Virus record (IMG/VR): IMGVR_UViG_3300042559_001852
Coordinates: 1 to 39,770 of that record
DNA length: 39,770 nt
Direction: 5' to 3' (one strand)
Source of the DNA: a virus
The notes under the pieces are model-generated. The model saw nothing but the letters and a program-made list of their open reading frames with translations. It was not told the origin of the DNA and ran no database searches. Both the position numbers and the translations under genes were made by a program. How positions within the stretch are numbered: the stretch's first letter is position 1; every line of letters begins with the position of its first letter. This document shows positions 5,087 to 22,219 of this stretch, piece after piece.

Positions 5087-5101
5087 TATGAGATTATATT
5101 A

Positions 5102-8100
5102 TTAGTAAGTTCCACCATCTATAATAGCAATCGATACTGCACCAGAAGTTACTGTAAAGTTGTTAGCACTAAAGCTAGCTACACCTTTAACTGATGTATT
5201 TGCATCAATACCTGCAAGTGTTACTGCAGCAGTTTCAGACCCAGATCCGGTAACACTTAATCCAGTACCTCCGGTAACAGCAATTGTTGCAACATAGTTA
5301 CCAGTAGTATCAGTTCCGAGAGCAATAGAATCTGGTTGTATTGTAGTACTTATAGTAACATCAGAACTACCATTAAACGATACCGAACCTGTTACATCGC
5401 CGGAAAGTGTAATGGTTCGACCGGTTTGAAGTGTAGTAGCAGTTGAAGCGTTACCGACAAGTGCAGCAGTAATCGTGTTTGCACCAAAATTGCCAGATGA
5501 GTCACGAGCCACGACCTTATTCGGAGTGGGCGTAGTGGTAGCATCAACAGTTATCGTAAGTGTAGAGGCTTCGGATCCGCCGTCAGCACCTGTGATGTAA
5601 GATCCATTTGTAATAGCCGCTACATAGTTACCTGTGGTATCAGTACCAAGTGCAACTGAATTTGGCTGGACTGTTGTGCTGATGTCAACGTTACCGCTGC
5701 CATCAAATGATACAGAACCTGCTACATCTCCTGACAGGGATATCGTTCTCGCTGTTTGAAGTGTAGTAGCAGTTGAAGCGTTACCGACAAGGTTTGCAGT
5801 AATAGTATTTGCTGCAAAGTTTTTCGAAGAATCGCGGAATACGATAGTTGACGCAGTGTTCAGCGATGTAGCGTTTGATTCAATCGTATAATCTGTGCCT
5901 TCACCAGCCGTTCCGGTGATGGTGAGACCATTTCCAGAAACCGCCACAGATCCTGCATAGTTACCAGTTGTATCAGTTCCAAGAGCAACAGAATTTGGCT
6001 CTATTGTAGTGCTGATTGTAACGTTAGCCGTACCATCAATTGAAACAGAGCCAGTTACATCTCCTGATAGCGTAATAGTTCTTGCAGTGAGCCACTTTGA
6101 GGCTGTATCAGCATTGCCAATTAACGCACCTCTGAAATTAGCAGCTTCAATATCTGCAAGAGCAAAAGAGACATGACCAGTATCAATGAACGGGCTTGTA
6201 TCAGGTTCTGGTGTATATCCTTCAAATACTTTAAAATGCCCGTCTGATGCATCTCGGAAGAAACCGCCATGTTGATAGGTAGTATCATAATAGCCAAAAG
6301 CAAAGCCTAAGTCAGGGTTAGCATTTGATCTACCGCGAGCAGTACCACCAGATACATAAGTATCAGTTACTGAACTCGAGATAGTGAAAGTGTTTGCGGT
6401 AACACCTGTGATAGTTTTGTTCGATAAGTTAAATGAGCTTGGAGTAACTCCACTTATCGATACGCTGTATCCAACAAGATAGTTATGATTTTGTGTTGTA
6501 GAATAAACTACGTTCGCACCATCACCAACTATGTTAGAAATAGTAGTAGCAATTGCCTGGTTCATATATATCATATTATCTGAAACAGATAAGTTTGTCG
6601 CGCTCACAGTAGTAGTTGTACCGCCAACCACAAGGTTACCAGAGATTGTAACACCACCACCAAATGTACCATTATTGAATGTAACGTTTGCTGACGTCGA
6701 AACATCTTGCCCAATCGCGATCGTAGGTGTTGCGGTTTCACCTGAATTATTCGTGAGTGTAACACCAGTTCCTGCAACAAGACTTGCAACATAATCGCCA
6801 GTTGTATCTGTACCGAGAGCAACTGAATTTGGCTGAATAGTTGCGGTAATGGTAACGTTACCGAGATCTGTCATTGTAGCAGAGCCAGCGACATCACCAG
6901 AAAGAGTGATCACCGGGTCGTTAACATCAAAGTTTAAATAACCGCCGCCAACTCCGTTATCAGTATACGTTACACTGATACCGTTCTGCGTTCCGGTAAG
7001 CATTCCACCAACAGTGTCTTGAACTGCTTCGTCCCAGTTGTTTACCTGAGTGTTTGGAATAGAAATTGTGTTTGCAACAGCAGAAGTAATACGACCTTGC
7101 TGATCTACAACAAACGTCGTAGTCGCGGTTGCTGATCCGTACGTACCAGGTGTTACAGCAGTATCATCGAGGTCTACAGTTACGGTGTTGTTTGTAACTG
7201 TTGCGGTAATACCAGTGTCGCCAGTAATTGTGAGAGTATCTGAAATGAGCGATACACCATCAGTTCCAGAATTTCCAGCGATATTAAGAATAGTAGCAAT
7301 TGCAGCTGTGCTGGCCGCTGTTAGACGACCTTGTTGATCAACCGTAAATGTTGCAATCGAAGTAGTGTTACCATAAGATCCAGGTGCAACAGCAGTATCA
7401 TCAAGGTCAATGTCGACTCTGTTTTCCGTAACAGCAACGGTGATACCAGTGTTACCACTAAAATTGAGAGTATCACTGAGTAATGAAACTGAATCAGATC
7501 CAGAATCACCGGCAATTGCTAGATTTGTAGCGATAGAAACGGTGCTAGCAGCAGTCAGTCGACCTTGTTGATCAACAGTAAATGTTGCAATCGAAGTAGT
7601 GTTACCGTAAGATCCAGGTGATACTGCAGTATCATCGAGGTCAATCGTAATCGAATTATTCGATACTGTTGTAGTAATTCCAGTATCACCTGTGAATGTG
7701 ATAACTTCATTAGTAAGGATAGAATCTGTTGTGCCAACATCTGCAGCGATCTGAATAGCGACAGATCCGCCGGCAAATCTATCATCGACATACTTTTTAG
7801 TAGCTGCATCAGTATTTGCAGTCGGTGTGCCAAGATTAATGATTTTTGCTGAGCTTACATCAACATTTCCAGTACCATTTGGATCAAGCGTAATGTTTCC
7901 ATTTGTGTCTGTCGATGTGATAGCATTACCATTAATCGTAATATTATCAACGTTGAGTATATCGATTTTACTATTGGAATCGACAATGAGAGCAGAAGTA
8001 GCAGTTAAAGTACCAGGTACATGATCAAGCATGGCAGTAAAGTACTTACCGCCAATCACTTCAATGTTCGCTGCAACCCCGCCAGTCTCAGTGCCTGTAC

Positions 8101-8224
8101 CAATATAGAGACGTTCGCCACCATTTGATTGAGTTCCGCCGAGGAACGAATACGCCATTTCACCTTGCGCAAGAGCACCAGGTGATCCGGAAGAACCTGA
8201 TCGTTTGATTCTGATGAGTGACAT
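5102..8224 (-). CDS. Large repetitive tail-fibre protein, 1040 aa
   Basis: The ATG at 8224 overlaps the stop of the 81-aa gene (TAATG). The N-terminus MSLIRIKRSGSSGSPGALAQ continuing to LAQGEMAYSF is a typical fibre anchoring segment. Residues about 155-390 hold three tandem units with DLDDTAV.PGSYG and TFTVDQQGRLTAAST, spaced exactly 78 residues. From about residue 440 there are dispersed units of LSGDV.GSVS plus P.S.ALGTDTTGNY. A non-repeat segment around residues 560-680 includes GGFFRDASDGHFKVFEGYTP. The protein is nearly free of cysteine and ends VSIAIIDGGTY. It has no obvious C-terminal chaperone domain. The repetitive shaft-like architecture points to an elongated trimeric fibre. It is a paralogue of the fibre at 1-1502 and shares modules with the one at 18929-22219. 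Confidence 0.85.
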   Translation of the reverse strand: MSLIRIKRSGSSGSPGALAQGEMAYSFLGGTQSNGGERLYIGTGTETGGVAANIEVIGGKYFTAMLDHVPGTLTATSALIVDSNSKIDILNVDNITINGNAITSTDTNGNITLDPNGTGNVDVSSAKIINLGTPTANTDAATKKYVDDRFAGGSVAIQIAADVGTTDSILTNEVITFTGDTGITTTVSNNSITIDLDDTAVSPGSYGNTTSIATFTVDQQGRLTAASTVSIATNLAIAGDSGSDSVSLLSDTLNFSGNTGITVAVTENRVDIDLDDTAVAPGSYGNTTSIATFTVDQQGRLTAASTAAIATILNIAGNSGTDGVSLISDTLTITGDTGITATVTNNTVTVDLDDTAVTPGTYGSATATTTFVVDQQGRITSAVANTISIPNTQVNNWDEAVQDTVGGMLTGTQNGISVTYTDNGVGGGYLNFDVNDPVITLSGDVAGSATMTDLGNVTITATIQPNSVALGTDTTGDYVASLVAGTGVTLTNNSGETATPTIAIGQDVSTSANVTFNNGTFGGGVTISGNLVVGGTTTTVSATNLSVSDNMIYMNQAIATTISNIVGDGANVVYSTTQNHNYLVGYSVSISGVTPSSFNLSNKTITGVTANTFTISSSVTDTYVSGGTARGRSNANPDLGFAFGYYDTTYQHGGFFRDASDGHFKVFEGYTPEPDTSPFIDTGHVSFALADIEAANFRGALIGNADTASKWLTARTITLSGDVTGSVSIDGTANVTISTTIEPNSVALGTDTTGNYAGSVAVSGNGLTITGTAGEGTDYTIESNATSLNTASTIVFRDSSKNFAANTITANLVGNASTATTLQTARTISLSGDVAGSVSFDGSGNVDISTTVQPNSVALGTDTTGNYVAAITNGSYITGADGGSEASTLTITVDATTTPTPNKVVARDSSGNFGANTITAALVGNASTATTLQTGRTITLSGDVTGSVSFNGSSDVTISTTIQPDSIALGTDTTGNYVATIAVTGGTGLSVTGSGSETAAVTLAGIDANTSVKGVASFSANNFTVTSGAVSIAIIDGGTY
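5290..6920 (-). repeat. Dispersed ALGTDTTGNY/LSGDV units of the 1040-aa fibre
   Basis: Four units combining LSGDV.GS and P.S.ALGTDTTG.Y lie near 5300-5420, 5638-5740, 5965-6075 and 6798-6912, at uneven spacing. The same unit occurs in the paralogous fibre at about 360-460 and 1115-1215. Confidence 0.8.
7060..7760 (-). repeat. Three tandem 234-base repeats in the 1040-aa fibre
   Basis: The unit contains the 'VDQQGR(L/I)T' coding segment. On the plus strand its landmark (cgaccttg) begins at 7092, 7326 and 7560, exactly 234 bases (78 residues) apart. The two units nearest the gene start are the most alike, for example identical over TFTVDQQGRLTAAST. The third (7092) has diverged. They are coding repeats that likely form equal shaft segments. 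Confidence 0.9.
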
Positions 8225-8469
8225 TAGAAGAATCCTCCGTTAATTTCTGTGTTTGGATTCTCGATCACGGTCTGAGCTCTCCAAGTTTGTGTCGATTCGT
8301 CGTAAGTGATAAGCGCGCCATCTTGCAAGTTGCCGACGACGACATCAGAAAGATCATCAAGTGTAATATTGCTTGTACTTACTTGGTAATTAGTAACTAG
8401 AATATTCTGCTGAGGAGTTACCTTAGCGGTAGTTGTAGTTCCTTGTCTAACAACGGCTTTAATACTCAT
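8224..8469 (-). CDS. Small fibre-associated protein, 81 aa
   Basis: ATG at 8469, 1 base after the stop of the 110-aa gene. Its stop overlaps the next ATG (TAATG), so it is translationally linked to the 1040-aa fibre. The C-terminal half carries ITLDDLSDVVVGNLQDGALI and then YDESTQTWRAQTV. This short 'DDLSDV...DG.L..YD..T..W' segment recurs at the start of many phage fibres. It may be a free-standing version of an N-terminal fibre domain and could form the collar between baseplate and shaft. No enzyme motif is present. Confidence 0.72.
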   Translation of the reverse strand: MSIKAVVRQGTTTTAKVTPQQNILVTNYQVSTSNITLDDLSDVVVGNLQDGALITYDESTQTWRAQTVIENPNTEINGGFF

Positions 8470-8470
8470 A

Positions 8471-8803
8471 TTAGATTCTCGTTATGCCAGGCGTTACTGT
8501 AACGATTCCTTCAACAACGCGAGTAATAGTTCCCCCTGAAGAAGTGATTTCTACATCGTATAGATATCTACCGGGTTCAATTGTCGAAGTCGTATTTGCT
8601 GTTAAAGAAAGAAATATTTCACCGTCAGCACTGCTATGACTTCCGACAAAATTAACAGCCGTACTTGATGCATAATTTTTTCGCATTTGCGCAGCGACGG
8701 TGTATCCAGTGAGATTAAACACATTATTTGATACATCAGTCAAATCGATAGTTGCACTAAATGTTGCACCCTGATCAACAACTAAATTTGCTTTAATAGC
8801 CAT
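8471..8803 (-). CDS. Ig-like/BppU-N-like baseplate or fibre attachment protein, 110 aa
   Basis: ATG at 8803 with a strong ribosome site (AAGGAGAT). An exact late promoter octamer lies 26 bases upstream, making this the first gene of the 8803-1553 fibre operon. The sequence (DQGATFSATIDLTDVSNNVF, FNLTGYTVAAQMRKNY, GRYLYDVEITSSGG, VVEGIVTVTPGITRI) is an Ig-like beta-sandwich. It resembles the N-terminal domain of BppU/DUF2479 receptor-binding proteins and many small proteins of T4-like marine phages. That domain normally attaches receptor-binding parts to the baseplate. The family link is by pattern, not by search. Confidence 0.72.
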   Translation of the reverse strand: MAIKANLVVDQGATFSATIDLTDVSNNVFNLTGYTVAAQMRKNYASSTAVNFVGSHSSADGEIFLSLTANTTSTIEPGRYLYDVEITSSGGTITRVVEGIVTVTPGITRI

Positions 8804-8828
8804 AGGTAATCTCCTTGAGTTCTATGGT

Positions 8829-8836
8829 TATTTATA
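8829..8836 (-). promoter_or_regulatory. T4-type late promoter octamer between the DUF3050 gene and the fibre operon
   Basis: Exact TATAAATA on the minus strand in the 41-base gap between the DUF3050 stop (8845) and the 110-aa start (8803). It separates the radical SAM block from the fibre operon and is well placed (26 bases before the ATG). Confidence 0.82.
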
Positions 8837-8844
8837 AGATCTCC

Positions 8845-9591
8845 TTAAAGAGCACCTTCGATATCATTGAAAAACTCAATTCGAGCTTGAATAGCTGATA
8901 TTGCTGCTTGTTCAGCTTCATGAATCTTAATTGGATCATCGTCACAGAAGTATTCTACGAGTTTTTCTGACATTGGTCCATGCTCATCGCCATCTACTTC
9001 AATATGCCTCTGAAGATAATAGTGAAACTTAGGTGCTTCGAGTTTGCTAATGTTAAGCTGAGTTAATAACCGAGTAAACATATCTGGAATAATTGTTTCA
9101 CGACCATACGCAAATGAAGCTGCAGCACAATGCGGTCCCTTTTTAATCGTGTCAAAGGTACTACGCATAAATTTTTCAGCCGGCTTTGAAGCAAGATGGT
9201 ATGGAATATTTCCTATAATGTCTATGTTTTTAAGAAACACATTGATAGGTTTTACATCTGCATCTACTTCAAGCATTGACTGAAGATATAAGTCAAAATG
9301 ACTCACCGATCCGCCACCTGGTGCAACATCAGTTTCTTCACATAATACGATCTCATTAATCATTCTCGCAATATCAGAACGTGTTCCCTTTGTCGGAATC
9401 CACAAATATGTTGTCGGAACTACTTCGTGTTGCAATGTTTTAAGTAAGGACATAAAATCCCATACCGCAAACACGTGGTGCTCCATAAACACCCTTAAGT
9501 CTTGCTTTGACTGGATGTTATTTGTTATAAGAAGTGAATGATTCTTAAGTAAGTTTGAATGTTCTTCAATTAGTGTTTTGTTGAGTTTCAT
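8845..9591 (-). CDS. DUF3050-type haem-oxygenase-like putative diiron protein, 248 aa
   Basis: ATG at 9591 lies inside the end of the 451-aa gene (26-base overlap) with AAGGACAAG upstream. The segment RVFMEHHVFAVWDFMSLLK (residues 34-51), followed by MINEIVLCEETDV and SHFDLYLQSM, is the signature I associate with DUF3050. DUF3050 belongs to the haem-oxygenase-like diiron (HDO) fold. HDO relatives with known chemistry include UndA, BesC and SznF, which use O2. Candidate metal ligands are E80, E85, H98, E165, H196, D200 and H204 (in GRETIIP and RHIEVDGDEHG); the exact set is inferred. It is the last gene of the radical SAM block, so it may act on the same substrate or on a small molecule. It is soluble, and its substrate is unknown. 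Confidence 0.75.
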   Translation of the reverse strand: MKLNKTLIEEHSNLLKNHSLLITNNIQSKQDLRVFMEHHVFAVWDFMSLLKTLQHEVVPTTYLWIPTKGTRSDIARMINEIVLCEETDVAPGGGSVSHFDLYLQSMLEVDADVKPINVFLKNIDIIGNIPYHLASKPAEKFMRSTFDTIKKGPHCAAASFAYGRETIIPDMFTRLLTQLNISKLEAPKFHYYLQRHIEVDGDEHGPMSEKLVEYFCDDDPIKIHEAEQAAISAIQARIEFFNDIEGAL

Positions 9592-10921
9592 TTCTTGTCC
9601 TTAACCCATTAATATATCTTCTCATATAGTCTGTTGGCTCTTGATCATGTTTCATAACAACAGGTTGGCCAAAGAGTAATTGGAATGCATGAAGTTGAAT
9701 ATTTCCCCACCATACTTTTTCAAGAGCACAATTAGAATAGAATACGTGATCAGGAAACTTAATCGGGCATGAAGATCTACACAAACGTTTCACTGGGCAC
9801 TTCATGCAATGGGTCTTCTTGCGAAGAATGTCCATACCCTTGATCTCTACCTTCGTAACATCCTCAAGACGACCAGCAATAAAGCTTCCATCAGTATGAG
9901 GGCATAACCGAACATTGCCCTGAATATCTACAGACAATATATCGTTTGAGTCTGCTCCACAACCTGACTTTGTAGTGATAGGCGTAGCTCTCTTTAAGAA
10001 TTTCGCGTATTCAATCACGCCTTCTTCTGAATACACTATATTGTTTTTTAAGAATCGAACACGCTCAATGTCGTTTATACTCTGCTGGGTAAACTCGAAT
10101 AGATGCAAAGTAAATGCTTTTAACTTCTCTCCACGAAGAATGTAATTTGATGAAGCTTCACCAGTGTCATGCACATCATAGTTCTTAGCAGGAATGAATG
10201 TGATCTTCATTCTTTTGCGGTCAATTTGTTGAGAATCACAGAAGTCTTTAAAATAGTCGTTAATCGCGTATAGATCGTGGTTATCACTGCTTACGACTGT
10301 TGAAAATCCTAGGCCAACATTAGGCAAGTCAATAAGTTGTTTGATAACGTCGACTTTATTTGGCTTCTTCAATATATCTTCACCGCGAAGCTTCTCTTGG
10401 CCTACCGCGTCATGTGATAAACTAATAAGTACTCTTGCTTTCAGCGTTCGAAAGAAGTCTACATGTTTTTGAACAAAGGCAGAACCATTTGTAGATATAA
10501 AGAACTCACGATCTGGTGAATCAAAAAACGTCATCAACTGAACCATATCTTTCCAATATAAGAATGGTTCTCCGCCCCACAGTTCTACACGGTGTAAACG
10601 ATCAAGGTTTAAGTTCCGTTTGATATTAGCGATAAATGTATCTGTGTAAATAGACTGTGGTCTTTCAGACGGATTACCAATATCTTTTTGCATGCAATAT
10701 GTGCAATTATAATTACATGCATGCCCTAACAGAATTCGAATCGCAATTGGATTGTTTACTTTATTCGTGACACCGTGATTCTTTTCTTCTACTTCGTAAT
10801 AAGAAAGATCTCTTTCGGGTGGCATGTTTAATTGAACACCAGAGGTGTTCATTAGTCTATTCGTGTGTGAGTCATAATAGAAGGAAGTGCCATCCTTCAA
10901 TTCATAATATTGATAATCCAT
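9566..10921 (-). CDS. Radical SAM/SPASM enzyme, 451 aa
   Basis: ATG at 10921 overlaps the stop of the 126-aa HxH gene (TAATG), so the two are translationally coupled. The radical SAM cluster motif is HACNYNCTYC (C69, C73, C76), followed by LWGGEPFLY (GGEP 116-119). The C-terminus has a complete SPASM pattern: C321-x13-G-x4-C340, then C372-x2-C375-x5-C381-x3-C385 and C398, enough for two auxiliary 4Fe-4S clusters. Residues 1-55 form an extension of the kind that can recognise a peptide leader. SPASM enzymes with known roles (AlbA, PqqE, MftC, anSME) nearly all modify peptides or proteins, so a protein substrate is likely here. The coupled 126-aa protein is the first candidate. No 7-deazaguanine genes are nearby to suggest a QueE role. 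Confidence 0.9.
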   Translation of the reverse strand: MDYQYYELKDGTSFYYDSHTNRLMNTSGVQLNMPPERDLSYYEVEEKNHGVTNKVNNPIAIRILLGHACNYNCTYCMQKDIGNPSERPQSIYTDTFIANIKRNLNLDRLHRVELWGGEPFLYWKDMVQLMTFFDSPDREFFISTNGSAFVQKHVDFFRTLKARVLISLSHDAVGQEKLRGEDILKKPNKVDVIKQLIDLPNVGLGFSTVVSSDNHDLYAINDYFKDFCDSQQIDRKRMKITFIPAKNYDVHDTGEASSNYILRGEKLKAFTLHLFEFTQQSINDIERVRFLKNNIVYSEEGVIEYAKFLKRATPITTKSGCGADSNDILSVDIQGNVRLCPHTDGSFIAGRLEDVTKVEIKGMDILRKKTHCMKCPVKRLCRSSCPIKFPDHVFYSNCALEKVWWGNIQLHAFQLLFGQPVVMKHDQEPTDYMRRYINGLRTRNETQQNTN

Positions 10922-11301
10922 TATGCGAGTAAGTCATCCCATACATGGTTGTGTGATCGAAGCGCTTCCACCTGATTTCTCATCTCAGTGTATTGAGATG
11001 CCTTAATATCGCCACCTTGAGAAAATGTTGAAGCAATTGCAGTGAAACCCGAAACGGTATTAACCGTATCAGTAGTAGAAACAGTTCCGGGCGAGACTAA
11101 GTTACCAAATTCTTTGACTTGACTATAATCGGTAAGTGTATGTGTGTGGGCCCCAACTGCGTTAATAAAGTCTTTTAACATAGTATAATGTGCAGCTTGT
11201 ACAGTATTACCAGAAGCTACTTGTGCTAACAATGGGGTCGTATAGGTTGTACGAAGAGATAATGCTGGGCTTATCGATGTTGTACCGCTGAATGCTGGCA
11301 T
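10921..11301 (-). CDS. Small protein with two HxH modules, 126 aa
   Basis: ATG at 11301 with AAGGATTT upstream; its stop overlaps the start of the SPASM enzyme at 10921. It contains two copies of a 31-residue module, at residues 30-60 (H52, H54 in GAHTHTLTDY) and 95-125 (H117, H119 in RSHNHVWDDL). A third copy forms residues 20-50 of the 63-aa protein at 15123-15314. The three align without gaps, sharing Ala at position 7, an aromatic at 10, Ala at 19 and HxH at 23-25. No cysteine is present. HxH pairs bind metal in trimeric phage fibre tips such as T4 gp37, so a virion role is possible. A radical SAM substrate role is suggested by its place among the enzymes. Neither is proven. Confidence 0.78.
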   Translation of the reverse strand: MPAFSGTTSISPALSLRTTYTTPLLAQVASGNTVQAAHYTMLKDFINAVGAHTHTLTDYSQVKEFGNLVSPGTVSTTDTVNTVSGFTAIASTFSQGGDIKASQYTEMRNQVEALRSHNHVWDDLLA

Positions 11302-11311
11302 GATTAAATCC

Positions 11312-12451
11312 TTATTTGAAACTTATTATGGGAGTCGGATCACCTGATGGGAAGTATAAACCAACTTCAGTTCTTCGATATCCTAGCTCTATAAGTTTGT
11401 GATAGTATTTTGAGTTTTCACTTAACATCATCTTTGGTATAAAGTTAAATTCTCTATTCACTACAAATGTATCTACTGTATTTATATAGTAGTCTCTAAA
11501 TTTTTGTGCGGTAGAATCTAGCGATTGTTTTAACTCTTCAGAGAAAGAGTTATACAATTTAAACTTTCCATTAACCATATCATACATAAATTCTCTATGA
11601 TCAAAGTCCCCGCTCATTATGTGAAAAGGATCCCAATTTATATCAGTTGCGTCATCAATACTATAGAAGAATCTATCACCATATAGGTGAAGTGATCCAC
11701 GGTAGACCTGATACGTTCTATCATTGTAGCACAGCACGTGGCTGTTTTGATAGTCGAATAACCCCTGCAAGTCATGATCTGCATTACCGAGTTCGTTATC
11801 TTCAACACTTCTCTTTCTATAATCATTATGAAGAGACGTTACAATACCTTTATCATTTATCCACTCAACGAGTTCTTTTGCATGATAAGGTAATTCTGTT
11901 TCTGTTGTTTTGATTACCTTGACTTTATGTAAATCATACTTGCTTATATAATCTTGTAGTATCTCAATAATCTTGTTATAGTTTTTCTTTGAGTTTACTT
12001 TATTCATAAACTCTTCACTTAATGCAACTTCAGATAACCCTTTCATGTCGAGTTCCATAAGTGTCTTATGTTGTTTTATAAGTGCGTTATCGGTCATACC
12101 ATATTCAAAGGTAGAAGCGTGTTCCTTATACCAAGAATATACGTAAGGATAGTTTTCCTTAAGATAGGACAAATCGTCGACTACTCTAATAACGTAGAAG
12201 TAGCTGAAGATCTCGTACCAACGCTTTTCTTCTTCGGCGGTTATCTTGGTGGGCACTGCATTCGAATAATACGGCAGATGTTGATTTAGTTTTTGCTTAA
12301 TATAACAGACCTGACAATTCGCACCACAATAGTATTTGTTGGTAGGACTAAACGTAATATCATGATCTAAAGGTGCTAATGCATCTTCGGTTATGAAGTA
12401 CGCACTATTATCTTTGAATTTTCTAAATTCTTCACCAGTGTAACTACTCAT
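11312..12451 (-). CDS. Divergent radical SAM protein without SPASM domain, 379 aa
   Basis: ATG at 12451 (MSSYTGEEFR) is preferred over a TTG two codons upstream. It overlaps the preceding radical SAM gene by 8 bases. The motif YYCGANCQVCYI (C42, C46, C49) fits the CX3CX2C site for the SAM-binding 4Fe-4S cluster. The usual GGEP motif after it is not recognisable, and no SPASM cysteines follow. The remainder is mixed alpha/beta and rich in Tyr and Asp (YEIFSYFYVIRVVDDLSYLK, FEYGMTDNALIKQHK, HDYRKR), compatible with a partial TIM barrel. It may be an active but divergent enzyme, or a partner that presents the substrate to a neighbouring enzyme. Its place between other radical SAM genes supports the call. 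Confidence 0.7.
   Translation of the reverse strand: MSSYTGEEFRKFKDNSAYFITEDALAPLDHDITFSPTNKYYCGANCQVCYIKQKLNQHLPYYSNAVPTKITAEEEKRWYEIFSYFYVIRVVDDLSYLKENYPYVYSWYKEHASTFEYGMTDNALIKQHKTLMELDMKGLSEVALSEEFMNKVNSKKNYNKIIEILQDYISKYDLHKVKVIKTTETELPYHAKELVEWINDKGIVTSLHNDYRKRSVEDNELGNADHDLQGLFDYQNSHVLCYNDRTYQVYRGSLHLYGDRFFYSIDDATDINWDPFHIMSGDFDHREFMYDMVNGKFKLYNSFSEELKQSLDSTAQKFRDYYINTVDTFVVNREFNFIPKMMLSENSKYYHKLIELGYRRTEVGLYFPSGDPTPIISFK
11479..11486 (-). promoter_or_regulatory. Late-promoter-like octamer within the divergent radical SAM gene
   Basis: Exact TATAAATA on the minus strand, 178 bases upstream of the 126-aa HxH gene and inside the 379-aa coding sequence. It could give extra transcription of the HxH protein and the next two enzymes. 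The distance is large, so it may be chance. Confidence 0.4.
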
Positions 12452-13547
12452 ATCCAATCCAATGCAATAACGTTGGCTGCTGTTTTAATTTATGCAAATG
12501 ACGCACCATTAAACTAATCGTTTTATAGAAGTCAACACATTTTCCACTCGGCTCTTCTTCAAACATATGATAAAGATACTTTAACCCGCATGCGTCTCGA
12601 AGCTCACATGTTTGGCATCCTGGAAGAATGAAGTCTTCTTCGCTCTTTACTCGATCGAGATATTGCTGACCTCTCCATCTTCCAACTCTAAATTCTTTTC
12701 TCTTGTATTCAAGGTAATCAAATTCTGGGTAAAGATACCCATCAGGTGATAAGATAAGTTTCCCGTGATTATTGAGGTATTGCTTATCTATTTTGTCGTA
12801 GTTACCATCTATGTTGAGGTTAATACCTTGTACATACAGAGAATGAATAAATCTCATCAAGTATATACTATACCACTTCATATCGAAGTCGTCAATTAGG
12901 ACTCTGAACTTTTGTTTCCCTCGATGATGACGAAGAGGAATCAGGTTGAGTGTATCGCATCTACTTTCTTTGCACGCGCTAATTACCGCTGCAAGTGTGT
13001 GCTCGTTGAATCCATCGGGTGGGCACACGAATTGAAACATCAAATAACAGTTGTTTCGATATAAGACTTCTGACAATCCTTTCAGGTCTATCTTTTCACG
13101 ATTGATCTCTTGATAGTTGAAGTCGTAACTCAAGGTGATGTGGGTTTTATTCCATTTCTGAAAGAACCACTCGTTTTCTACAATAAGTGATCCGTTTGTT
13201 GTGATGTAGTATTCAACGTCATCACCAAACATCGGATGTATTAAATCCATCAATTGATCAATGCGTTTGATATACAGAAACGGTTCACCTCCGTGAAAAG
13301 AAATTGACTTAAGATCTTTCGCATGTTCTTTCGCGAGAGTCATAAATTTTACGATCTCATCAAAGTCTCGTTTAAGAAGATTCTGTGAACCTATCTCATC
13401 CCGGATGTAAGATCGGTCACAGTAAACACAGTCGAAGTTACAAAAGTCTCCGAGGTATACTGTGATCGTCTTTATTCCAGTAAAGTCGAAAGACTTGTTT
13501 TGTTGATGCTGTTCTGTTCGTGTCTGAAGACGATTGTCGATATGCAT
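12444..13547 (-). CDS. Radical SAM enzyme with shortened SPASM/Twitch-like tail, 367 aa
   Basis: The cluster motif is GDFCNFDCVYC (C36, C40, C43 counting from ATG 13547), with FHGGEPFLY (GGEP 86-89). The C-terminal region has SPDGYLYPEFDY where a full SPASM would have its first cysteines, then C311-x2-C314-x5-C320 and C337. One auxiliary Fe-S cluster, as in Twitch domains, therefore looks likely. The start is uncertain: ATG 13547 or GTG 13562, neither with a good ribosome site. Both lie inside the 3' end of the upstream radical SAM gene, an overlap of 75-90 bases in a different frame. No later in-frame start would keep the first barrel strand. The substrate is probably a peptide or protein, by analogy and context. 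Confidence 0.85.
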   Translation of the reverse strand: MHIDNRLQTRTEQHQQNKSFDFTGIKTITVYLGDFCNFDCVYCDRSYIRDEIGSQNLLKRDFDEIVKFMTLAKEHAKDLKSISFHGGEPFLYIKRIDQLMDLIHPMFGDDVEYYITTNGSLIVENEWFFQKWNKTHITLSYDFNYQEINREKIDLKGLSEVLYRNNCYLMFQFVCPPDGFNEHTLAAVISACKESRCDTLNLIPLRHHRGKQKFRVLIDDFDMKWYSIYLMRFIHSLYVQGINLNIDGNYDKIDKQYLNNHGKLILSPDGYLYPEFDYLEYKRKEFRVGRWRGQQYLDRVKSEEDFILPGCQTCELRDACGLKYLYHMFEEEPSGKCVDFYKTISLMVRHLHKLKQQPTLLHWIGYE

Positions 13548-15121
13548 TGGATGTAATAACACTTCACTATGTCTGAATCTGGATTGAACGTAATTTCTGG
13601 GTAGCCAAAGTATTTCGCGAGTGTATTATATAACTCTCTCAAATCATTTGCACCGAACCAGTCATTCATTATTTTTTCCGGTGGTTCGAGTGTATCGCGG
13701 ATTTTCACGTAGTGTTCGAACATGCCTTGATCCAGCGTACGTCCTTCAAAGACTTCTCGAAAGAACGTAAGTTCAGCTGACATGATCTGAGGACCGAGCT
13801 CTTGAAGACGTTTGGCTCTCTTTTTTACATGCCGCATAAAGATCTTTTTATTTACATCGTGCTGAAAGTCAACATAAAGCTTAACGATCTTTTGGCACAT
13901 ATCGTCTGGGCGGAAGATTCGAGAACCGGTGTCAAGATTTCCTGCTGGGCACTGGTAGCATGCGTTCTGATAGTCACATGTACGGCACTGTTCTTCTGTC
14001 TCAAACATCTCGTTGTAAGCGTTTTGAAACGTCTTATACCGATCGACGTACACCTTGTCCTGAATAACGTTTCCAAGAACCGCGATGTCAGCGCCATTTG
14101 ACTTTTGGTTGGTAAAGAAATAACAGCCAGAGAAGTCACCTGATGCATCGATGGCAACCATATGTGAACCAACCATACAGTTACTATCTTCCTTTTGGCC
14201 AACACCTTCTGAAAACTTAACATACAGATCTTCATACGTCTCAAGCGCGTTGAAGATCTTCGATCTCATCGACTGCCAGTTATCGTCTTTCCACGAGATG
14301 TACCCATGTTTTGAGTCGAGCACAAGAGGGTGTACAACCATGTTTCTAACACCTAGGCTGTATAACTCATCGATGAAGTTACCCATGTCCCGACTTGTTT
14401 CTTCTGAGAGTGTTGCACGAATTACAACTCGCATAGGATCATCGACAGTATCAATTGCTTTTTTGATAATACCACGAAGCTTATTCATCTGTGAAGGCGT
14501 AATCTCACGATGATCGATCGTCGAATTGAAAGTATCGAGACTGATCATCATATGAGTATACGGTTTGCTGAAATAGAACTCAGTGAACTCATCGTTGAGT
14601 AACAGTCCGTTTGTACACATTGAGATGTACGTTCCGCGATAGTCTTTATAGTTTGAACTGAGTTCTTCGTCGTAAGTCTCAATGAATTCTTTTATTAACG
14701 GCTTATGAATAAGAGGTTCACCGCCAAAGAACTGAAAGACCTTCTTTTGCCCGTTGTTTCTAGCATTCATCCAGTCATAGACTTGTTTGAGAGATTCCTT
14801 TGTGAACCGACCAAAGTCCTTGTTGTGTTGTTCATAACAATAAGAGCACGCTAAGTTGCATGCGTTAGTAAGCATAGCATTTACCTGAACAAGATCTTTA
14901 AATAAGGTTTCTGCTTGGGCAAAAGGGACTGCTTTTTCTTCAGACTTTGGAAGAACCGTGATGAGTTTATTTGACTTTTGACCTTTGCCAGATATATTGA
15001 TAGTTTCAACACTTGTGACAAGAGCGCCTTCTTGATCTATGACCGAAGGTGTATGATTCTTTAACCTATTCTTTTGTGCTTCATTTAAGACTCTTCTCAC
15101 ATTCGCATAATTATTTGACAT
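13472..15121 (-). CDS. Radical SAM/SPASM enzyme next to the CQCNC peptide, 549 aa
   Basis: The preferred start is ATG 15121 (MSNNYANVRR), 1 base after the stop of the 63-aa peptide gene, with GAGG about 12 bases upstream. An in-frame ATG at 15175 would overlap that gene. The cluster motif is NACNLACSYCYE (C88, C92, C95), then FFGGEPLIH (GGEP 133-136). A SPASM-type set follows: C315-x12-G-x4-C333, C379-x2-C382-x5-C388-x2-C391 and C409. Residues 1-75 are a long extension before the barrel, a common place for a leader-binding domain in RiPP maturases, though I do not see a clear RRE fold. About 140 residues follow SPASM and are unusual. Location directly behind a Cys-rich small protein is the classic arrangement of a peptide maturase and its precursor. 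Confidence 0.9.
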   Translation of the reverse strand: MSNNYANVRRVLNEAQKNRLKNHTPSVIDQEGALVTSVETINISGKGQKSNKLITVLPKSEEKAVPFAQAETLFKDLVQVNAMLTNACNLACSYCYEQHNKDFGRFTKESLKQVYDWMNARNNGQKKVFQFFGGEPLIHKPLIKEFIETYDEELSSNYKDYRGTYISMCTNGLLLNDEFTEFYFSKPYTHMMISLDTFNSTIDHREITPSQMNKLRGIIKKAIDTVDDPMRVVIRATLSEETSRDMGNFIDELYSLGVRNMVVHPLVLDSKHGYISWKDDNWQSMRSKIFNALETYEDLYVKFSEGVGQKEDSNCMVGSHMVAIDASGDFSGCYFFTNQKSNGADIAVLGNVIQDKVYVDRYKTFQNAYNEMFETEEQCRTCDYQNACYQCPAGNLDTGSRIFRPDDMCQKIVKLYVDFQHDVNKKIFMRHVKKRAKRLQELGPQIMSAELTFFREVFEGRTLDQGMFEHYVKIRDTLEPPEKIMNDWFGANDLRELYNTLAKYFGYPEITFNPDSDIVKCYYIQCISTIVFRHEQNSINKTSLSTLLE

Positions 15122-15122
15122 C

Positions 15123-15314
15123 TTAGATACTGCCTCGGGCACAGTTGCACTGACAATTTGATGTATAGTCATCACTAAATGTATGGCTGTGCTGAATCAA
15201 CGCATCAAGCACATCGACCATCTGCCGAAAAGATGCGGCATCAATTGTTTGGCCTGACGTTTTTGCTGTAGTGGATCCAGCTGCTGTAAATGTACTCGTG
15301 TTATCTGCAACCAT
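15123..15314 (-). CDS. 63-aa HxH protein ending in CxCxC; candidate radical SAM substrate
   Basis: ATG at 15314 with AAAGGATAAC upstream; TAA 1 base before the radical SAM/SPASM gene. Residues 1-19 are Thr/Ala/Ser-rich. Residues 20-50 are the 31-residue module also found twice in the 126-aa protein at 10921, with H42 and H44 in QHSHTFSDDY. The tail TSNCQCNCARGSI places cysteines at 54, 56 and 58. Three cysteines in five residues stand out because the structural proteins around it contain almost none. An exact late promoter lies 68 bases upstream, so this is the first gene of a transcript that continues into two radical SAM enzymes. It could be a RiPP-like precursor with the module as leader or scaffold and the tail as core. 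It could also be a small metal-binding virion protein that is not modified. The gene is well supported; the role is inferred. Confidence 0.75.
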   Translation of the reverse strand: MVADNTSTFTAAGSTTAKTSGQTIDAASFRQMVDVLDALIQHSHTFSDDYTSNCQCNCARGSI

Positions 15315-15319
15315 GTTTG

Positions 15320-16327
15320 TTATCCTTTAGCTACGATAAATTCTATCTTGTATTTGCCCGCAGTAGCAGTACGATCGTATCTATTTATAATTGAATCTAT
15401 ATTGTATTCTAATGTGATATATCCAAAGTGTCGAGTCGGGTCTACGTGAATTTTTCCGTCCTTCACTTTTACAGTTAAATTAGTTTTGATTTCTCTATCA
15501 AATTTTATCTTATTACCGTATTTACCAAAGTAAGTACCACCTTCATATTCGTGTATAACGAACTGGGACGTCGTAAAAATAGTATTCTTGTTTACAGTGT
15601 ATGTTCCGGAACCTTCGATTCTTGGTGTTAAAAAGTATTCTTCTATTGTGGCATCATATGCATCCATCGTAAAGGCGTGATGAGAATTATTATACACATT
15701 TGAATCAATACTCGGCATTGCTACTAAATGTGGATTGAGTACACAAACAACTAATTCTGAGTTTTTTGTTTTTTTGAAAACGCAATAAGTTACTGTAGCA
15801 ATAGAAGCTAATCCATCAATAGGATTGTTATCTCCACTTAAGTTAATCACGTTAAAATCATCATCTCGAGTATAGTAGTACGATTTAGCCATCAACGTTT
15901 TCTTATTCATGGCGATATTACTTAGTGGAGTTCCGAGTGCAACCCAAGAATGTTTTTCTAAATAACTGTACACTTCATCAAGATTAATAACTCTACTATT
16001 ATCTGAGTCTAGACTAACATTAGGCGTTAAATATTCCTTTAGAATAAGTTGGCCCTTTGACTCACCAACTTCAGTATTCATACCAGAGTTATTTGTTTCT
16101 ATTACATACTTAAACGATTCAGACTCAAACTGTTCGAGTATGGGCGCCTTTAATTTATGTATGCGTTCATCTTTCACTATATTAGCGAGTGAAGATCTTC
16201 CAGAATTAACTGGCATATATAAGCCGTTAAACGACCACTTATCGCCAATAGCAAGGTTCATTACATCAGTACAGTTTTCCCAAATGGGTGGACGCTTTGA
16301 CGCCCATATAAATGCCCAGTTAATCAT
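15320..16327 (-). CDS. Hypothetical protein within the radical SAM block, 335 aa
   Basis: ATG at 16327 overlaps the stop of the 191-aa gene (ATGA), so the two are translated together. The N-terminus MINWAFIWASKRPPIWENC is rich in Trp. The middle has SYYYTRDDDFNVINLSGDNN and ELVVCVLNPHLVAMP. The C-terminal 120 residues look all-beta, with Thr/Lys/Asp-rich strands (TNLTVKVKDGKIHVDPTRHF) and a close TAGKYKIEFIVAKG. No signal peptide, membrane segment or known catalytic motif is visible. I do not recognise the family. A structural beta protein, a target of the neighbouring enzymes, or an enzyme of unknown type are all open. An exact late promoter for the next gene lies within its last 70 bases. 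Confidence 0.65.
   Translation of the reverse strand: MINWAFIWASKRPPIWENCTDVMNLAIGDKWSFNGLYMPVNSGRSSLANIVKDERIHKLKAPILEQFESESFKYVIETNNSGMNTEVGESKGQLILKEYLTPNVSLDSDNSRVINLDEVYSYLEKHSWVALGTPLSNIAMNKKTLMAKSYYYTRDDDFNVINLSGDNNPIDGLASIATVTYCVFKKTKNSELVVCVLNPHLVAMPSIDSNVYNNSHHAFTMDAYDATIEEYFLTPRIEGSGTYTVNKNTIFTTSQFVIHEYEGGTYFGKYGNKIKFDREIKTNLTVKVKDGKIHVDPTRHFGYITLEYNIDSIINRYDRTATAGKYKIEFIVAKG
15382..15389 (-). promoter_or_regulatory. T4-type late promoter octamer upstream of the CQCNC peptide gene
   Basis: Exact TATAAATA on the minus strand, 68 bases upstream of the 63-aa gene (start 15314), in the last part of the 335-aa gene. It would make the peptide the first gene of a late transcript that continues into radical SAM enzymes, giving high peptide expression. 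Confidence 0.65.
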
Positions 16328-16899
16328 AGTGACCTAATATATGCTATAACTTCTTCGCTTGAATTGCCATCAAAGAATACATCAAACTTATCTTTGTGTT
16401 TTCTTAAAAAGTTTGAATAAGATTCTTGGAATAGATGCGCTGATTCTTCGCTTAAGTTTTCATGTGTGACAAGATGGTGAATACTTCGAGGAGTAACCCA
16501 CCCAATATAGACGTGAGGTACATGTGGGCGATTGCCTGAATAAGCAATTGGTAAGACAACATGACCTTCAAGTTCTCTTCCAATATATACGTCTGATTCA
16601 TATTTTAAGAAGATAAACTTATTCATATCGTGAAACGCTTCTTCAAAAAACTTTATATATGTGTCTTGATCTTGAAGGGATTCAAATACATACTTATAAT
16701 CTCCACGCTTAAATGCATCAATGACGTCTTGAGGATATTCATGTTGAATTAAATTCTTTGCAACGATATCTAAAAAGTAAGCGTCTTCCATACAAAATTG
16801 TATAAAGTTATCTGCATGCCAGTTGTTGACCTTATTGCGAATAGCATTATTCACATCGTCAATCTCAATGTTCATCGCTAACACTACTTTTTTTAACAT
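16324..16899 (-). CDS. Hypothetical protein within the radical SAM block, 191 aa
   Basis: ATG 16899 is chosen for its AGAGGTTAACCC ribosome site. It overlaps the end of the B12-type radical SAM gene by 7 bases. An internal ATG at 16875 (MNIEIDD) has no such site. The first 110 residues are mostly helical and acidic (FIQFCMEDAYFLDIVAKNLI, DAFKRGDYKYVFESL). The second part contains GNRPHVPHVYIGWVTPRSIH followed by HLVTHENLSEES, with several His residues that might bind metal, and a helical end. I do not recognise a family. The overlap on both sides ties it to the radical SAM enzyme upstream and to the 335-aa protein downstream, so a shared pathway or a partner role is plausible. Confidence 0.65.
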   Translation of the reverse strand: MLKKVVLAMNIEIDDVNNAIRNKVNNWHADNFIQFCMEDAYFLDIVAKNLIQHEYPQDVIDAFKRGDYKYVFESLQDQDTYIKFFEEAFHDMNKFIFLKYESDVYIGRELEGHVVLPIAYSGNRPHVPHVYIGWVTPRSIHHLVTHENLSEESAHLFQESYSNFLRKHKDKFDVFFDGNSSEEVIAYIRSL

Positions 16900-18920
16900 G
16901 GGTTAACCTCTATGTGCCGAAACATCTTATTTGAGCCACTGATAGAACACAGTTTAATGAAGTACTTGTTTACTCTCTCGTTCATATCATATTTATGCCA
17001 ATCGATCATGTGGTGAAGATCTGTGTATGTTACATCCATTGGAGTATTGTTGTATGTACCTTTGACTAAACTTTCTGACGTCCAATCATATTCACTTACA
17101 AATGACATAGGATTTTCAGGATTATAATCGATCCATTTAACAGTGTTGATGCTCCAATTGATTAGATCGTCTAGTTTCTCATCATCACCAAATTCGTCGA
17201 TGATCCACCTTTTTACTGCTTGATAAAAGTTATAACGGTTGATGTTGATCATGATGTTAATTAGTGCTGACATCTTTGCATACAATTTCCACGGTAAACC
17301 ATCAAGTCTATAGTATTCGAAGTTAATCGCACTTTTTTCCTGTACTTTTTGCTGGGCCTGTAGTATAATGCTTTTAAGCACAGAAAATTGGATAGAGTCT
17401 AAGTATTCAGTGTTAATGAATGTTTTGTAGAATTTTTTATAGAATGTAGAGTGTGGTATACCGATAGAGTCTAGGTACTGAGTAATTCTACGAAGGTATC
17501 CTTCAGTCTCCATAGTAAAAATAATACCATCAGACACAAGCATCTCTACGTACTCTTCTCGAGAGTAGGACATAGTAGCTACTACGATCTTTGATGGCTG
17601 TACATACTCAGGTGCTTCAATTAGACCTCTTTGTTTGATCAAAGATCCGTCCATCAGAATGTCTTCTCGAATTACCGCATCCTTTGTAGATTCGGTTAAA
17701 GATTCAATCATTTCGAGTTTAAACTTTTTGATATAATCTGAATGTGAAGCAGGTGATGTGGGAAGAAGATGCCATGTATACTTTTCCCAGAATACATTTA
17801 GTTTTGCCATTTCACCTGCTGCGAAATAGTAGTTTTCAAGTGTCGTGCCGGGAAGACCTCGAATCAACTCTGCTCTGATTTTGATACCAAACTCTTCGCG
17901 GAGTTCGTTATAAGCTTTGAACTGCTTTTCCCAAGGTTCATCTATTCTGTCGATGTTCTTTAAGACTTGAGGATCCATATCTTGCATTGATATCTTAAAG
18001 CCGGATGCAAGCCCATGCTGAGCCATCAGCCTATCAATCTTGTACACATTTGACTTCTTAGACTTGCTTAATCCAGCAAACACTATTTCCTTTGGCAGGT
18101 CGTATTTCTTTTTAAGCTCACACACATATTCCATAATTTCGACATCACGATCTAGTTGACCAAGATTTGCCTCAACCATGTGAAGATCTTCTAATGCATT
18201 ATTTTCTGCGAGCCATGTTAAATCTTCAATGATATCTTCAGTCGGTCTGAATGCAACCTTTGAGTTAATACCACCACTCCACTCGCAGAAGGTGCACCCG
18301 TATGGGCACCCGCGGTGAGTTTCGTAGATAGTCTGAAGTGTTACACCTGGAATACGATTATCGATCACATCTTTGATGTAGTCTTTATTACGTTCAAAGA
18401 TTTTCTTTGGCCAAGTAAATGAACGCTTATGAAATGTAATAGGTGATGTAATATAACCATCATCTTTTGCCATTACTATAAAGGGGACTTTCATCCAATC
18501 TTTATCAGTCTCTATTTGATAGAGTAATTCATTGATGAAAGGTTCACCATAGCCATCGGTTTGACAAGTAAAATCTACATACGGGTATTTCTTAAAATAA
18601 TCTGGGTCTTCCTTATATTCGCAGTAAGGCCCACCAAATGTAATGTAAATGTCTGGTCTATTTTCTTTAATCCGCCGAGCGACTTCTCGAGATAATCCTA
18701 CGTTCCATACGTAGACGGAAAATCCTACAAGTGCAGGATCTTTTGACAAGATATCGTCGACAAGTTCTTGAACGTCGTTAGCCCTTGAAGAAGAAATTGG
18801 GTAGTGCCAATTCCACTTAGCACTACCCTTATAATTATCTTCTACATATGACTTAAACGACATCCACGCGTAATCATACACATTATCGCGTATAGTGTAA
18901 TTTACATAAACAAAATTCAT
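16893..18920 (-). CDS. B12-binding-type radical SAM enzyme, 675 aa
   Basis: ATG at 18920 with AAGGAACA upstream, 8 bases after the fibre gene. Residues 1-140 resemble the cobalamin-binding Rossmann domain of class B radical SAM enzymes (PALVGFSVYVWNVGLSREVA, PDIYITFGGPYCE, with GGP at 96-98). The DxHxxG histidine motif is absent, as in several members of this group, so B12 binding is probable but not certain. The radical SAM motif is THRGCPYGCTFCEW (C205, C209, C212). The barrel continues with LHMVEANLGQLDRDVEIMEY and FKISMQDMDPQVLKNIDR. The C-terminal 250 residues are a separate helical region of unknown role. Relatives methylate unreactive carbons or phosphorus, or carry out ring rearrangements. 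Its place at the head of the block suggests that methylation or another B12-dependent step may come first. Confidence 0.85.
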   Translation of the reverse strand: MNFVYVNYTIRDNVYDYAWMSFKSYVEDNYKGSAKWNWHYPISSSRANDVQELVDDILSKDPALVGFSVYVWNVGLSREVARRIKENRPDIYITFGGPYCEYKEDPDYFKKYPYVDFTCQTDGYGEPFINELLYQIETDKDWMKVPFIVMAKDDGYITSPITFHKRSFTWPKKIFERNKDYIKDVIDNRIPGVTLQTIYETHRGCPYGCTFCEWSGGINSKVAFRPTEDIIEDLTWLAENNALEDLHMVEANLGQLDRDVEIMEYVCELKKKYDLPKEIVFAGLSKSKKSNVYKIDRLMAQHGLASGFKISMQDMDPQVLKNIDRIDEPWEKQFKAYNELREEFGIKIRAELIRGLPGTTLENYYFAAGEMAKLNVFWEKYTWHLLPTSPASHSDYIKKFKLEMIESLTESTKDAVIREDILMDGSLIKQRGLIEAPEYVQPSKIVVATMSYSREEYVEMLVSDGIIFTMETEGYLRRITQYLDSIGIPHSTFYKKFYKTFINTEYLDSIQFSVLKSIILQAQQKVQEKSAINFEYYRLDGLPWKLYAKMSALINIMININRYNFYQAVKRWIIDEFGDDEKLDDLINWSINTVKWIDYNPENPMSFVSEYDWTSESLVKGTYNNTPMDVTYTDLHHMIDWHKYDMNERVNKYFIKLCSISGSNKMFRHIEVNPC

Positions 18921-21900: not shown

Positions 21901-22219
21901 TGTTAGCTGAGATACGAACAAGCGGTGACTCTGAAAAGATGGTGTTTGATACTACGATTAAGTCGCCACCAGTGCTTGTAGACCCACCTCTTAATCCATT
22001 TGATACCACAACTGTATTTGCAGAGAAAATGCCTTGTAGATGAGCATTGCCAGTAGTGTATCCTCCAACCGTTACGTTCGGCTGTGGTTGGGTTACTGAT
22101 GTGAGTACCACGGTTCCCATATCATATACGAGAGAGTTGGTAGTGTCAATCCATGAGGCAAAAGTATCTGTTGCCTCAACGTTTGCACCTGCAGCTAAAT
22201 AGATGTGTGCCTTTGCCAT
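18929..22219 (-). CDS. Large repetitive tail-fibre protein, 1096 aa
   Basis: ATG at 22219 overlaps the stop of the 71-aa gene (TAATG). The N-terminal third includes two copies of a unit with TVTALEAT.E(V/I)RLKG and LDVAN. The middle (residues about 500-860) has at least four units of exactly 87 residues with TARTINGVSFNGSANITVTA, YLTGSNFNGSAATTW and VVARD..GNFAANTIT. The C-terminal 120 residues are a distinct, non-repeat domain beginning AQYADLAENYLADQAYEVGT and containing GVVSEKPAYLM and GRVPVKVIGGCKKGD. It resembles the Peptidase G2/intramolecular-chaperone-like ends of other phage fibres, but I cannot show self-cleavage. The protein has a single cysteine. The role is probably an elongated fibre, and the gene directly precedes the radical SAM block. 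Confidence 0.85.
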   Translation of the reverse strand: MAKAHIYLAAGANVEATDTFASWIDTTNSLVYDMGTVVLTSVTQPQPNVTVGGYTTGNAHLQGIFSANTVVVSNGLRGGSTSTGGDLIVVSNTIFSESPLVRISANTDNFTVNSNNTTFTSNVAIDSTKTVLISAANTTINAGQLFVRTSSEFTGTRVDIDGTTFDVTSNTIVTAASLNANVDVITLGFNASDSLVVNSLADFNSNTNIDGILTVTANAAFTGSNTTVTALEATGEVRLKGTSARTVKTQSTNSTLYSLNLSLANTSATITPLIVSSTALLPDTTTTYDVGSTSARWNKTWTKDLDVANTVVVTNQITVAGNAAFNGANTTVTALEATDEIRLKGASKSLKVQATTGTQPELNLSLANTTVTVTPLVANSTSVSPGANTTYDLGADLMRWDTAFVKDLDVANSVNIQVDAEVDRDMIIRRDLYVYGTSYFSSNVTLTLSSSDVQDLNVSNTISLVGGAGFDTNILPTANVTFTLGSTARRWNQLFANNVTANTVTATTVTAALTGNATTATTLQTARTINGVSFNGSANITVTANTNNTLTRGAYLTGSNFNGSAATTWDVDATDAATASKVVARDVSGNFAANTITATLTGNASTATTLQTARTINGVSFNGSANIVVTANTNNILTRGTYLTGSNFDGSAATTWAVDATTTSTAGKVVARDASQNFAANTITADLVGNASTATTLATARAINGVNFNGSAAITITANTPNTLTRGTYLTGSNFNGGAATTWAVDATTTSTADKIVARDAAQNFAANTITAALVGNASTATTLQTSRTINGVSFNGANNITVTANTNQAHTAGNYLNGSNFNGSAAVTWDVDATNLATAGTVVARDASGNFAANTITAVAFSGSGASLTSLNGSNISSGTIADARIATTLVRTSRNIAAGDGLSGGGDLTADRSFAVDSTVIRTTGNQTLSGTKTFPTLRYSGSALPDTTNSYNLGSSTLKFATVFATTFDGIATTAQYADLAENYLADQAYEVGTVIAVGGTAEVTAANVDNAHSVLGVVSEKPAYLMNNNLEGGTAIALKGRVPVKVIGGCKKGDRLAPSTTPGYAWVDNTRNAWSFAIALEDGALMVEAVIL
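19640..20720 (-). repeat. Four or more tandem 261-base repeats in the 1096-aa fibre
   Basis: A landmark for the 'ATT/ATD' linker codons begins at 19716, 19977, 20238 and 20499 on the plus strand, exactly 261 bases (87 residues) apart. Units encode NGVSFNGSANITV, YLTGSNFNGSAATTW and GNFAANTITA. Related single units occur in the fibres at 5102-8224 and 1-1502, suggesting exchange between genes. Confidence 0.9.

Follow-up and report, generated by a model that had tools for sequence, protein, structure and literature searches.

The window considered here, i.e. the whole stretch of DNA that was analysed, is a virus record of 39,770 bases (IMGVR_UViG_3300042559_001852) and covers the part of a phage genome that encodes the tail, including a baseplate. 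Its minus strand, on which all window features given below are located, encodes two small proteins, S63 and S126, within a cassette of radical S-adenosylmethionine (SAM) enzymes. The present work deals with the histidine-x-histidine (HxH) module shared by these two proteins, with the alternating-cysteine tip of S63, and with the enzymes that probably act on this tip. Profile matches place families of baseplate wedge proteins, tail fibres, and tail fibre assembly proteins on either side of the cassette. The gene order starts with a tail fibre-type protein of 1819 amino acids (aa), a 71-aa protein, a 1096-aa tail fibre, a 675-aa B12 radical SAM protein, p191, p335, and S63, and continues with rSAM567, rSAM372, p381, S126, rSAM451, a DUF3050 protein, p110, p81, and a 1040-aa tail fibre. 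In the collection of isolated phages, no DNA resembling the cassette region was found.

The HxH module of S63 and S126

S63 (63 aa; 15123..15314) and S126 (126 aa; 10921..11301) share a module of 31 residues, which occupies residues 20-50 of S63 (15165..15257, with H42 and H44) and is present twice in S126, at residues 30-60 (module 1; 11122..11214) and 95-125 (module 2; 10927..11019). The gapless alignment described in the initial annotation, with Ala at position 7, an aromatic residue at 10, Ala at 19, and HxH at 23-25, holds for all three copies, which are identical to each other at 11, 9, and 8 of 31 positions. The best ungapped 31-residue score between S63 and S126 is 62, a value reached by none of 5000 shuffles (maximum 45), and the halves of S126 score 52 against each other (0/5000 shuffles, maximum 38). 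The module is confirmed as real, far beyond chance. Both genes had also been placed directly before SPASM enzymes, and this proved right: the stop codon of S63 (15125-15123) and the ATG of rSAM567 at 15121 are 1 nt apart, and the stop codon of S126 and the rSAM451 ATG at 10921 have one base in common.

Among 30 aligned S63 rows H42 and H44 are invariant, as are both HxH pairs of S126 among 25 rows. In a single-chain structure prediction of S126 (predicted local distance difference test, pLDDT, 77), both HxH pairs are located where a helix ends, and the first pair leads into a strand. This model has one clear structural match, a 125-aa protein of Ralstonia phage RP12, which is also the most similar viral model. 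Profile searches of solved structures returned no match to S126 and matches to S63 at chance level only, and tblastn of both proteins against isolated phages gave nothing useful. Longer proteins with two HxH modules are encoded at L048 (3925-5085) and L076 (4331-5215); in one of them the modules are arranged around a glycine-rich domain, and the other has an extra C-terminal domain.

The cysteine tip and the S63 family

Overlooked in the first reading of the locus, the C-terminus of S63 forms a conserved alternating-cysteine tip, NCQCNCARGSI (residues 53-63; 15126..15158), in which C54 is invariant and C56 and C58 are kept in at least 90% of the S63 rows. Besides the 100% identical L003, a search with rSAM451 yielded the relatives L004, L005, and L006, in all of which S63 retains both histidines plus a C-terminal NCxCxC. 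With this second feature the reading of S63 changes: a part made up of a helix and HxH precedes a tip of cysteines. In L004, the genes of rSAM567 (3807-5450) and rSAM451 (8001-9356) are each divided between two reading frames, which may reflect sequencing error or decay.

The viral collection was scanned at the DNA level for HxH, D, Y, and CxCxC spaced as in S63, a pattern that is blind to the enzymes. The resulting 69 stretches, separated by eye after translation, comprise 54 members of one family and 15 chance matches. The family members are small proteins, nearly all of which end in (xC)n-RG-x. The radical SAM family PF04055 is present in all 54 of their records (50/50 in the first set, 4/4 later) vs 0/15 chance records. 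Of the 50 S63 records in the first set, at least 49 have their nearest entered radical SAM match within 5 kb, and in 47 this match shares the strand of S63, where only part of the radical SAM rows, mostly the best per record, was entered and a nearer row in G044 (4409) was omitted. On genomic evidence, S63 fits the layout of a precursor of ribosomally synthesized and post-translationally modified peptides (RiPPs), with a conserved N-terminal part, a C-terminal cysteine core, and an adjacent maturase. At L027 (14423-14899), an S63-type tip continues into a Hint-like domain, and the nearest enzyme reading frame comprises 758 aa with two radical SAM matches.

Cysteine tips without an HxH module

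Among isolated phages, the radical SAM gene closest to rSAM451 belongs to Achromobacter phage JWF, where a single gene separates it from a preceding tail fibre gene. The JWF tail fibre contains the sequence NCNCDCNCNCS leading into a Hint domain. Of 17 stretches found in a scan for CxCxC-FPAGT, 16 encode real Hint-type tip proteins. A radical SAM match is found in 15/16 of the real records, and the enzyme is seen downstream in 12/16 loci; in the exception, L101, the stretch breaks off within the gene preceding the expected enzyme. L090 was judged a chance match, and its record has a radical SAM match as well, giving 16/17 overall, 10 of the 17 records being over the radical SAM Pfam cut-off.

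A further DNA scan of the viral collection, for NCNCNCxC, gave at least 120 stretches. The rule for a tip, a reading frame of at least 100 aa with the tip no more than 12 residues from the C-terminus, was set before the enzyme search. Among the matches listed, 77 new loci were classed into 43 tips, 31 clear non-tips, and three ambiguous cases (L208, L211, L219), which were excluded from the counts. Within this set, radical SAM genes occur in 36/43 tip records vs 1/31 non-tip records with the same DNA pattern (Fisher's p ~1e-12, a figure qualified by the non-independence of the records and by the shorter length of many non-tip records). All 36 enzymes are encoded on the same strand, downstream, and within 3.6 kb of the tip (median 1.55 kb), and six of the seven tip records that lack a match have a contig end within 1.2 kb. 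The sole non-tip control with any radical SAM match, L216 (record G146), has seven of them. The C-terminal-tip and Hint-tip proteins are tail-fibre-like, those with a C-terminal tip being a few hundred residues long, and in the stretches shown their tips are not preceded by the HxH module.

The rSAM451 family as common partner of cysteine tips

rSAM451 (9566..10921) is a radical SAM enzyme with SPASM cysteines, whose family is common to all other cysteine-tip architectures. The enzymes of 30 C-terminal-tip and 10 Hint-tip loci, readable in full and found via the cysteine pattern without an enzyme profile, are all closest to rSAM451 and not to rSAM567, rSAM372, or p381. The SPASM cysteine pattern fits 59/59 sequences of the C-terminal-tip and Hint-tip groups together with rSAM451. 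At 50% identity, rSAM451-type enzymes form 36 clusters, 26 of which contain at least one member with a tip.

The reverse direction was covered with a profile of 22 rSAM451-type enzymes that was run against bacterial genomes. In the best 80 of 92 relatives, a tip on the same strand lies within 5 kb in 54 loci, in 53 of them upstream; the background amounts to 2/80 for tips on the opposite strand and 0/15 in chance-match loci. Several neighbours of the bacterial enzyme genes belong to tail fibre families. The bacterial loci include some from Rhodobacteraceae, Limnohabitans, Magnetospirillum, and Burkholderia, as well as from an Alteromonadales bin and a Bdellovibrio bin, both with S63 cassettes. 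In Parasutterella (L151, 2662-4058), three consecutive cysteine-rich frames with CSYC-type spacing are located upstream of a radical SAM gene.

With the 40 tip enzymes all closest to rSAM451, this enzyme type emerges as the partner that cysteine tips share, and the remaining enzymes as a branch seen in HxH cassettes. There is good support for a pairing between cysteine tips and rSAM451-type enzymes, and it is thus the cysteine tip, not HxH, that unites the enzymes.

Composition of the cassette

Most S63 records harbor three radical SAM genes encoding proteins of approximately 580, 370, and 440 aa, and the recurrent order is S126, S63, rSAM567, rSAM372, p381, rSAM451, and DUF3050. S126 precedes S63 in most loci and follows p381 in close relatives of the window; L049 and L068 also contain the enzyme block, in reversed orientation. 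rSAM567, rSAM372, and p381 were seen only in S63 cassettes, and the records of L030 and L063 have S63 and rSAM451 with no match to rSAM567 or rSAM372. Matches to PF04055 above the Pfam cut-off were obtained for rSAM451, rSAM567, rSAM372, and the B12 protein.

rSAM567, a radical SAM/SPASM enzyme of 549 aa from its ATG (13472..15121), has its best profile matches among peptide maturases (PapB, 3.5e-36; CXXX-repeat; QhpD; SCIFF). It exceeds the Pfam SPASM cut-off, yet the SPASM regular expression fits 0/43 members of its family; the same expression fits 0/29 members of the family of rSAM372, a radical SAM enzyme at 12444..13562 whose true start may be further downstream. Against the His-Xaa-Ser (Hxs) system, the scores stay below the cut-offs, with 61 bits vs 370 for HxsB and 29.5 vs 267.9 for HxsC.

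p381 (11312..12457) matches no Pfam family. A CX3CX2C motif followed by Tyr or Phe is present in 27/28 related open reading frames, the exception being truncated at the N-terminus. For the AlphaFold model (pLDDT 87, predicted template modelling score 0.87), Foldseek alone returned no match below E 0.001. When VIA-align was applied to the Foldseek hits, the first 27 rows were all radical SAM proteins with Z-scores from 11.1 to 8.1, the next row scoring 6.3; SuiB (11.1), MoaA (10.5), and viperin (9.9) lead the list. Judged by its modelled fold, p381 is a fourth, divergent radical SAM enzyme, which went unrecognised until it was modelled.

The DUF3050 protein (248 aa; 8845..9591) matches PF11251 with 263.6 bits vs a cut-off of 22.2 (9/9 members match this family) and shows a weak match to haem-oxygenase-like iron enzymes. 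Upstream of S63, p335 (15320..16327) has no assigned function and adjoins S63 in many cassettes. It was compared with the JWF gene lying between tip and enzyme, and a homologous relation was rejected, the comparison giving no relation. p191 (16324..16899), likewise without assigned function, occurs in close relatives only. The optional B12-binding radical SAM protein (16893..18920), present in some relatives only, resembles KedN5 and RiPP C-methyltransferases. Tail fibre proteins border the cassette upstream (18929..22219) and downstream (5102..8224), the latter adjoined by p81 and p110 (8224..8803), of which p110 matches the L-shaped tail fibre assembly family. On the contig of a near-identical record (L312), past the left end of the window, a second gene group with radical SAM motifs extends from ~3773 to 13254; it includes a 211-aa protein ending in VCHASCHNNCHSSRGRR, a possible further substrate.

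Proposed maturation of the tail tip

Judged from sequence and gene context, S63 and S126 are probably small fibre-type tail proteins, the cysteine tip of S63 being matured by the neighbouring radical SAM/SPASM enzymes. The most economical reading takes the tip as the substrate of these enzymes. For S63 and the HxH-type tip, we infer a location in the virion, a trimeric state, the type of bond, and a role in adsorption. In each module a helix would run into the HxH pair, and the S63 chain would then end in (xC)n-RG-hydrophobic. The enzymes would act on this end as related enzymes act on RiPP precursors, with rSAM451 performing the step common to all cysteine-tipped tail proteins and, in HxH cassettes, rSAM567, rSAM372, p381, the DUF3050 enzyme, and sometimes the B12 radical SAM enzyme adding further steps. 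The best relatives of these enzymes form thioether or other cysteine-centred bonds in peptides. The likeliest chemistry would be the formation of thioether bonds that connect cysteines with carbons of the backbone, or some different oxidation centred on cysteine, and the product a covalently hardened, chemically unusual needle where the phage meets its host and contacts the receptor. S126, as a putative fibre adaptor, would probably link the tip to the fibre. The HxH module may be a fibre scaffold whose pairs hold metal as in T4 gp37, and a trimeric, metal-binding HxH element is plausible by this analogy. In an extended chain, alternate residues point the same way; by analogy, HxH followed by CxCxC could make a continuous inner ladder at the tip of the fibre.

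As a joint reading, the chances appear evenly balanced that an entire class of tailed phages and related tail elements carries a host-recognition tip that is not plain protein. This tip would be a needle of alternating cysteines, remodelled by radical SAM enzymes dedicated to it; rSAM451 would serve as the maturase throughout, and tips scaffolded by HxH would have a branch of several enzymes. T4-like and phiKZ-like jumbo phages would belong to this class, as would prophage-like loci in many Proteobacteria. If true, RiPP chemistry is used to build a virus particle, the host range of phages depends partly on peptide chemistry of a non-standard kind, and many new enzymes that modify cysteines, their substrates already predicted, could be tested, in a cultured phage among others. 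A common function would also be assigned to many of the phage radical SAM genes that have been filed as metabolic extras, with a substrate predicted to the residue.

Several observations speak against the proposed maturation. Every link comes from genomic context, many records are related, and the control contigs are on the whole of lesser length and include duplicates; one sequence family accounts for 11 of the 15 chance records of the S63 pattern, and many of the 15 are short. S126 lacks cysteine. The tip record G126 offers 3.8 kb downstream without a radical SAM match, and 26 of the best 80 bacterial enzyme loci have no tip as defined; some of these are fragments or short contigs, L133 and L151 have variant cysteine-rich proteins, and others have none. 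All enzymes fall far below the NCBIfam cut-offs for known maturases (PapB, SCIFF, QhpD, anSME, and others), the best score against named RiPP maturase families being 125 bits at a PapB cut-off of 340. Finally, the section on virion proteins of phiRP31 names no product of the cassette (PMC5468394).

Alternative explanations

The initial annotation had regarded the HxH module as a possible recognition tag, here understood as recruiting radical SAM enzymes to S63 and S126. The tie to radical SAM genes on which it was based stands. Every S63 match adjoins such genes, and a scan with the pattern of S126 module 1 (33 stretches, 16 of which were translated there, the remainder being known from other comparisons) gave 32 real matches, 26 of them in radical SAM records. 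The opposite case, a fibre module widespread without radical SAM genes, is rejected on these counts (54/54 S63-type, 26/32 S126-type), which leave just six S126-type matches, on contigs of 8.6-15.6 kb in which no radical SAM gene was found. The role as general partner did not hold: rSAM451-type enzymes pair with tips that have no HxH module in the stretches shown, and HxH as general attractor of enzymes was rejected, all 40 enzymes of HxH-free tips being closest to rSAM451. S126, moreover, has two modules and no cysteine, and L030 and L063 combine S63 with rSAM451 in the absence of rSAM567 and rSAM372 matches. A general enzyme tag is unlikely, and recruitment of the enzymes to S63 and S126 by the module seems quite doubtful overall; the restriction of rSAM567, rSAM372, and p381 to S63 cassettes, with the C-terminal-tip and Hint-tip enzymes all closest to rSAM451, still leaves room for HxH as a tag for these extra enzymes. 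It is also possible, if unlikely, that the module is solely a trimeric metal-binding fibre element, the cysteines extending a metal ladder and the enzymes building or inserting a metal-sulphur centre with the peptide left unaltered. Two points argue against this possibility: SPASM enzymes like those of the cassette for the most part mature peptides and do not insert clusters, and no meaningful match to solved chains was obtained. Alternating cysteines would, like HxH, face inwards in a needle strand, the S126 model predicts a helix followed by HxH, and the HxH pairs of T4 gp37 bind iron (PMC11705849), all of which would agree with such a ladder.

It is improbable that the infected cell secretes S63 as a RiPP, such as a bacteriocin or signal, which would then not be part of the virion. 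The small size of S63, its precursor-like layout, and the presence of several maturases in the cassette would suit such a peptide; against this, tips of the same kind stand at the end of tail-fibre-like proteins that are a few hundred residues long, or ahead of Hint domains, and the genes are located within tail fibre blocks. Least of all do the data suggest that the radical SAM genes are metabolic passengers, brought close to cysteine tips by coincidence or by insertion into a shared hot spot, even if published accounts view such genes as metabolic, as in work on Campylobacter phages (PMC2853527), or as cassettes in the host recognition cluster, as in pelagimyophages (PMC7029224). This very improbable explanation is already disfavoured by the contrast between tips and non-tips with the same DNA pattern among the matches listed (36/43 vs 1/31, all 36 on the same strand and downstream), by the association with several unlike tip proteins, and by the reverse search (54 of the best 80).

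Comparison with known systems

In the open-access literature (subscription papers and preprints lay outside the scope), no paper was found that links radical SAM enzymes to cysteine tips of tails; nor was the chemically modified receptor-binding tip to which the present data point found described there. The pelagimyophage cassettes likewise have radical SAM genes within the tail fibre region, and differ in that no substrate, tip, or function is put forward for them in the account of the host recognition cluster (PMC7029224).

The closest cultured counterpart is Ralstonia phage phiRP12, whose gene list includes, among other genes, ORF76 (radical SAM), ORF77 (Fe-S, i.e. iron-sulphur, oxidoreductase), ORF79 (MoaA), and ORF80 (MgoB) (PMC5468394). 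The S63 record G050 (279,845 bases) encodes, in order, S126, S63, a 295-aa protein, rSAM567, rSAM372, p381, rSAM451, and DUF3050, and this order agrees with that of phiRP12 as listed (PMC5468394). Since the whole cassette is present in a phiRP12-like record, the proposed maturation is testable in a cultured phage. Since phiRP12 is grouped with phiKZ-related phages (PMC5468394), the cassette appears to cross phage lineages. The list itself differs from the reading given here in that ORF76-ORF80 of phiRP12 and phiRP31 are entered as 'other genes' and are not connected to a tail protein at that place (PMC5468394).

With the T4 gp37 needle, in which HxH pairs hold iron, and with HxH fibres of marine phages, the locus has in common that HxH motifs occur in a tail fibre context (PMC11705849). 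Unlike gp37, S63 and S126 are separate small proteins with a helix before HxH, followed in S63 by a cysteine tip and accompanied by enzymes. The radical SAM/SPASM maturases of RiPPs (PapB of ranthipeptides, SCIFF, QhpD, CXXX-repeat, and SuiB) resemble the cassette in that enzymes are encoded beside a cysteine-rich candidate substrate; they provide the best profile matches of rSAM567, and SuiB is closest to the predicted fold of p381. The enzymes of the cassette differ in scoring below all family cut-offs and in their number, up to four or five per cassette, and they would act on the C-terminal end of phage tail proteins, which in part adjoins a Hint domain.

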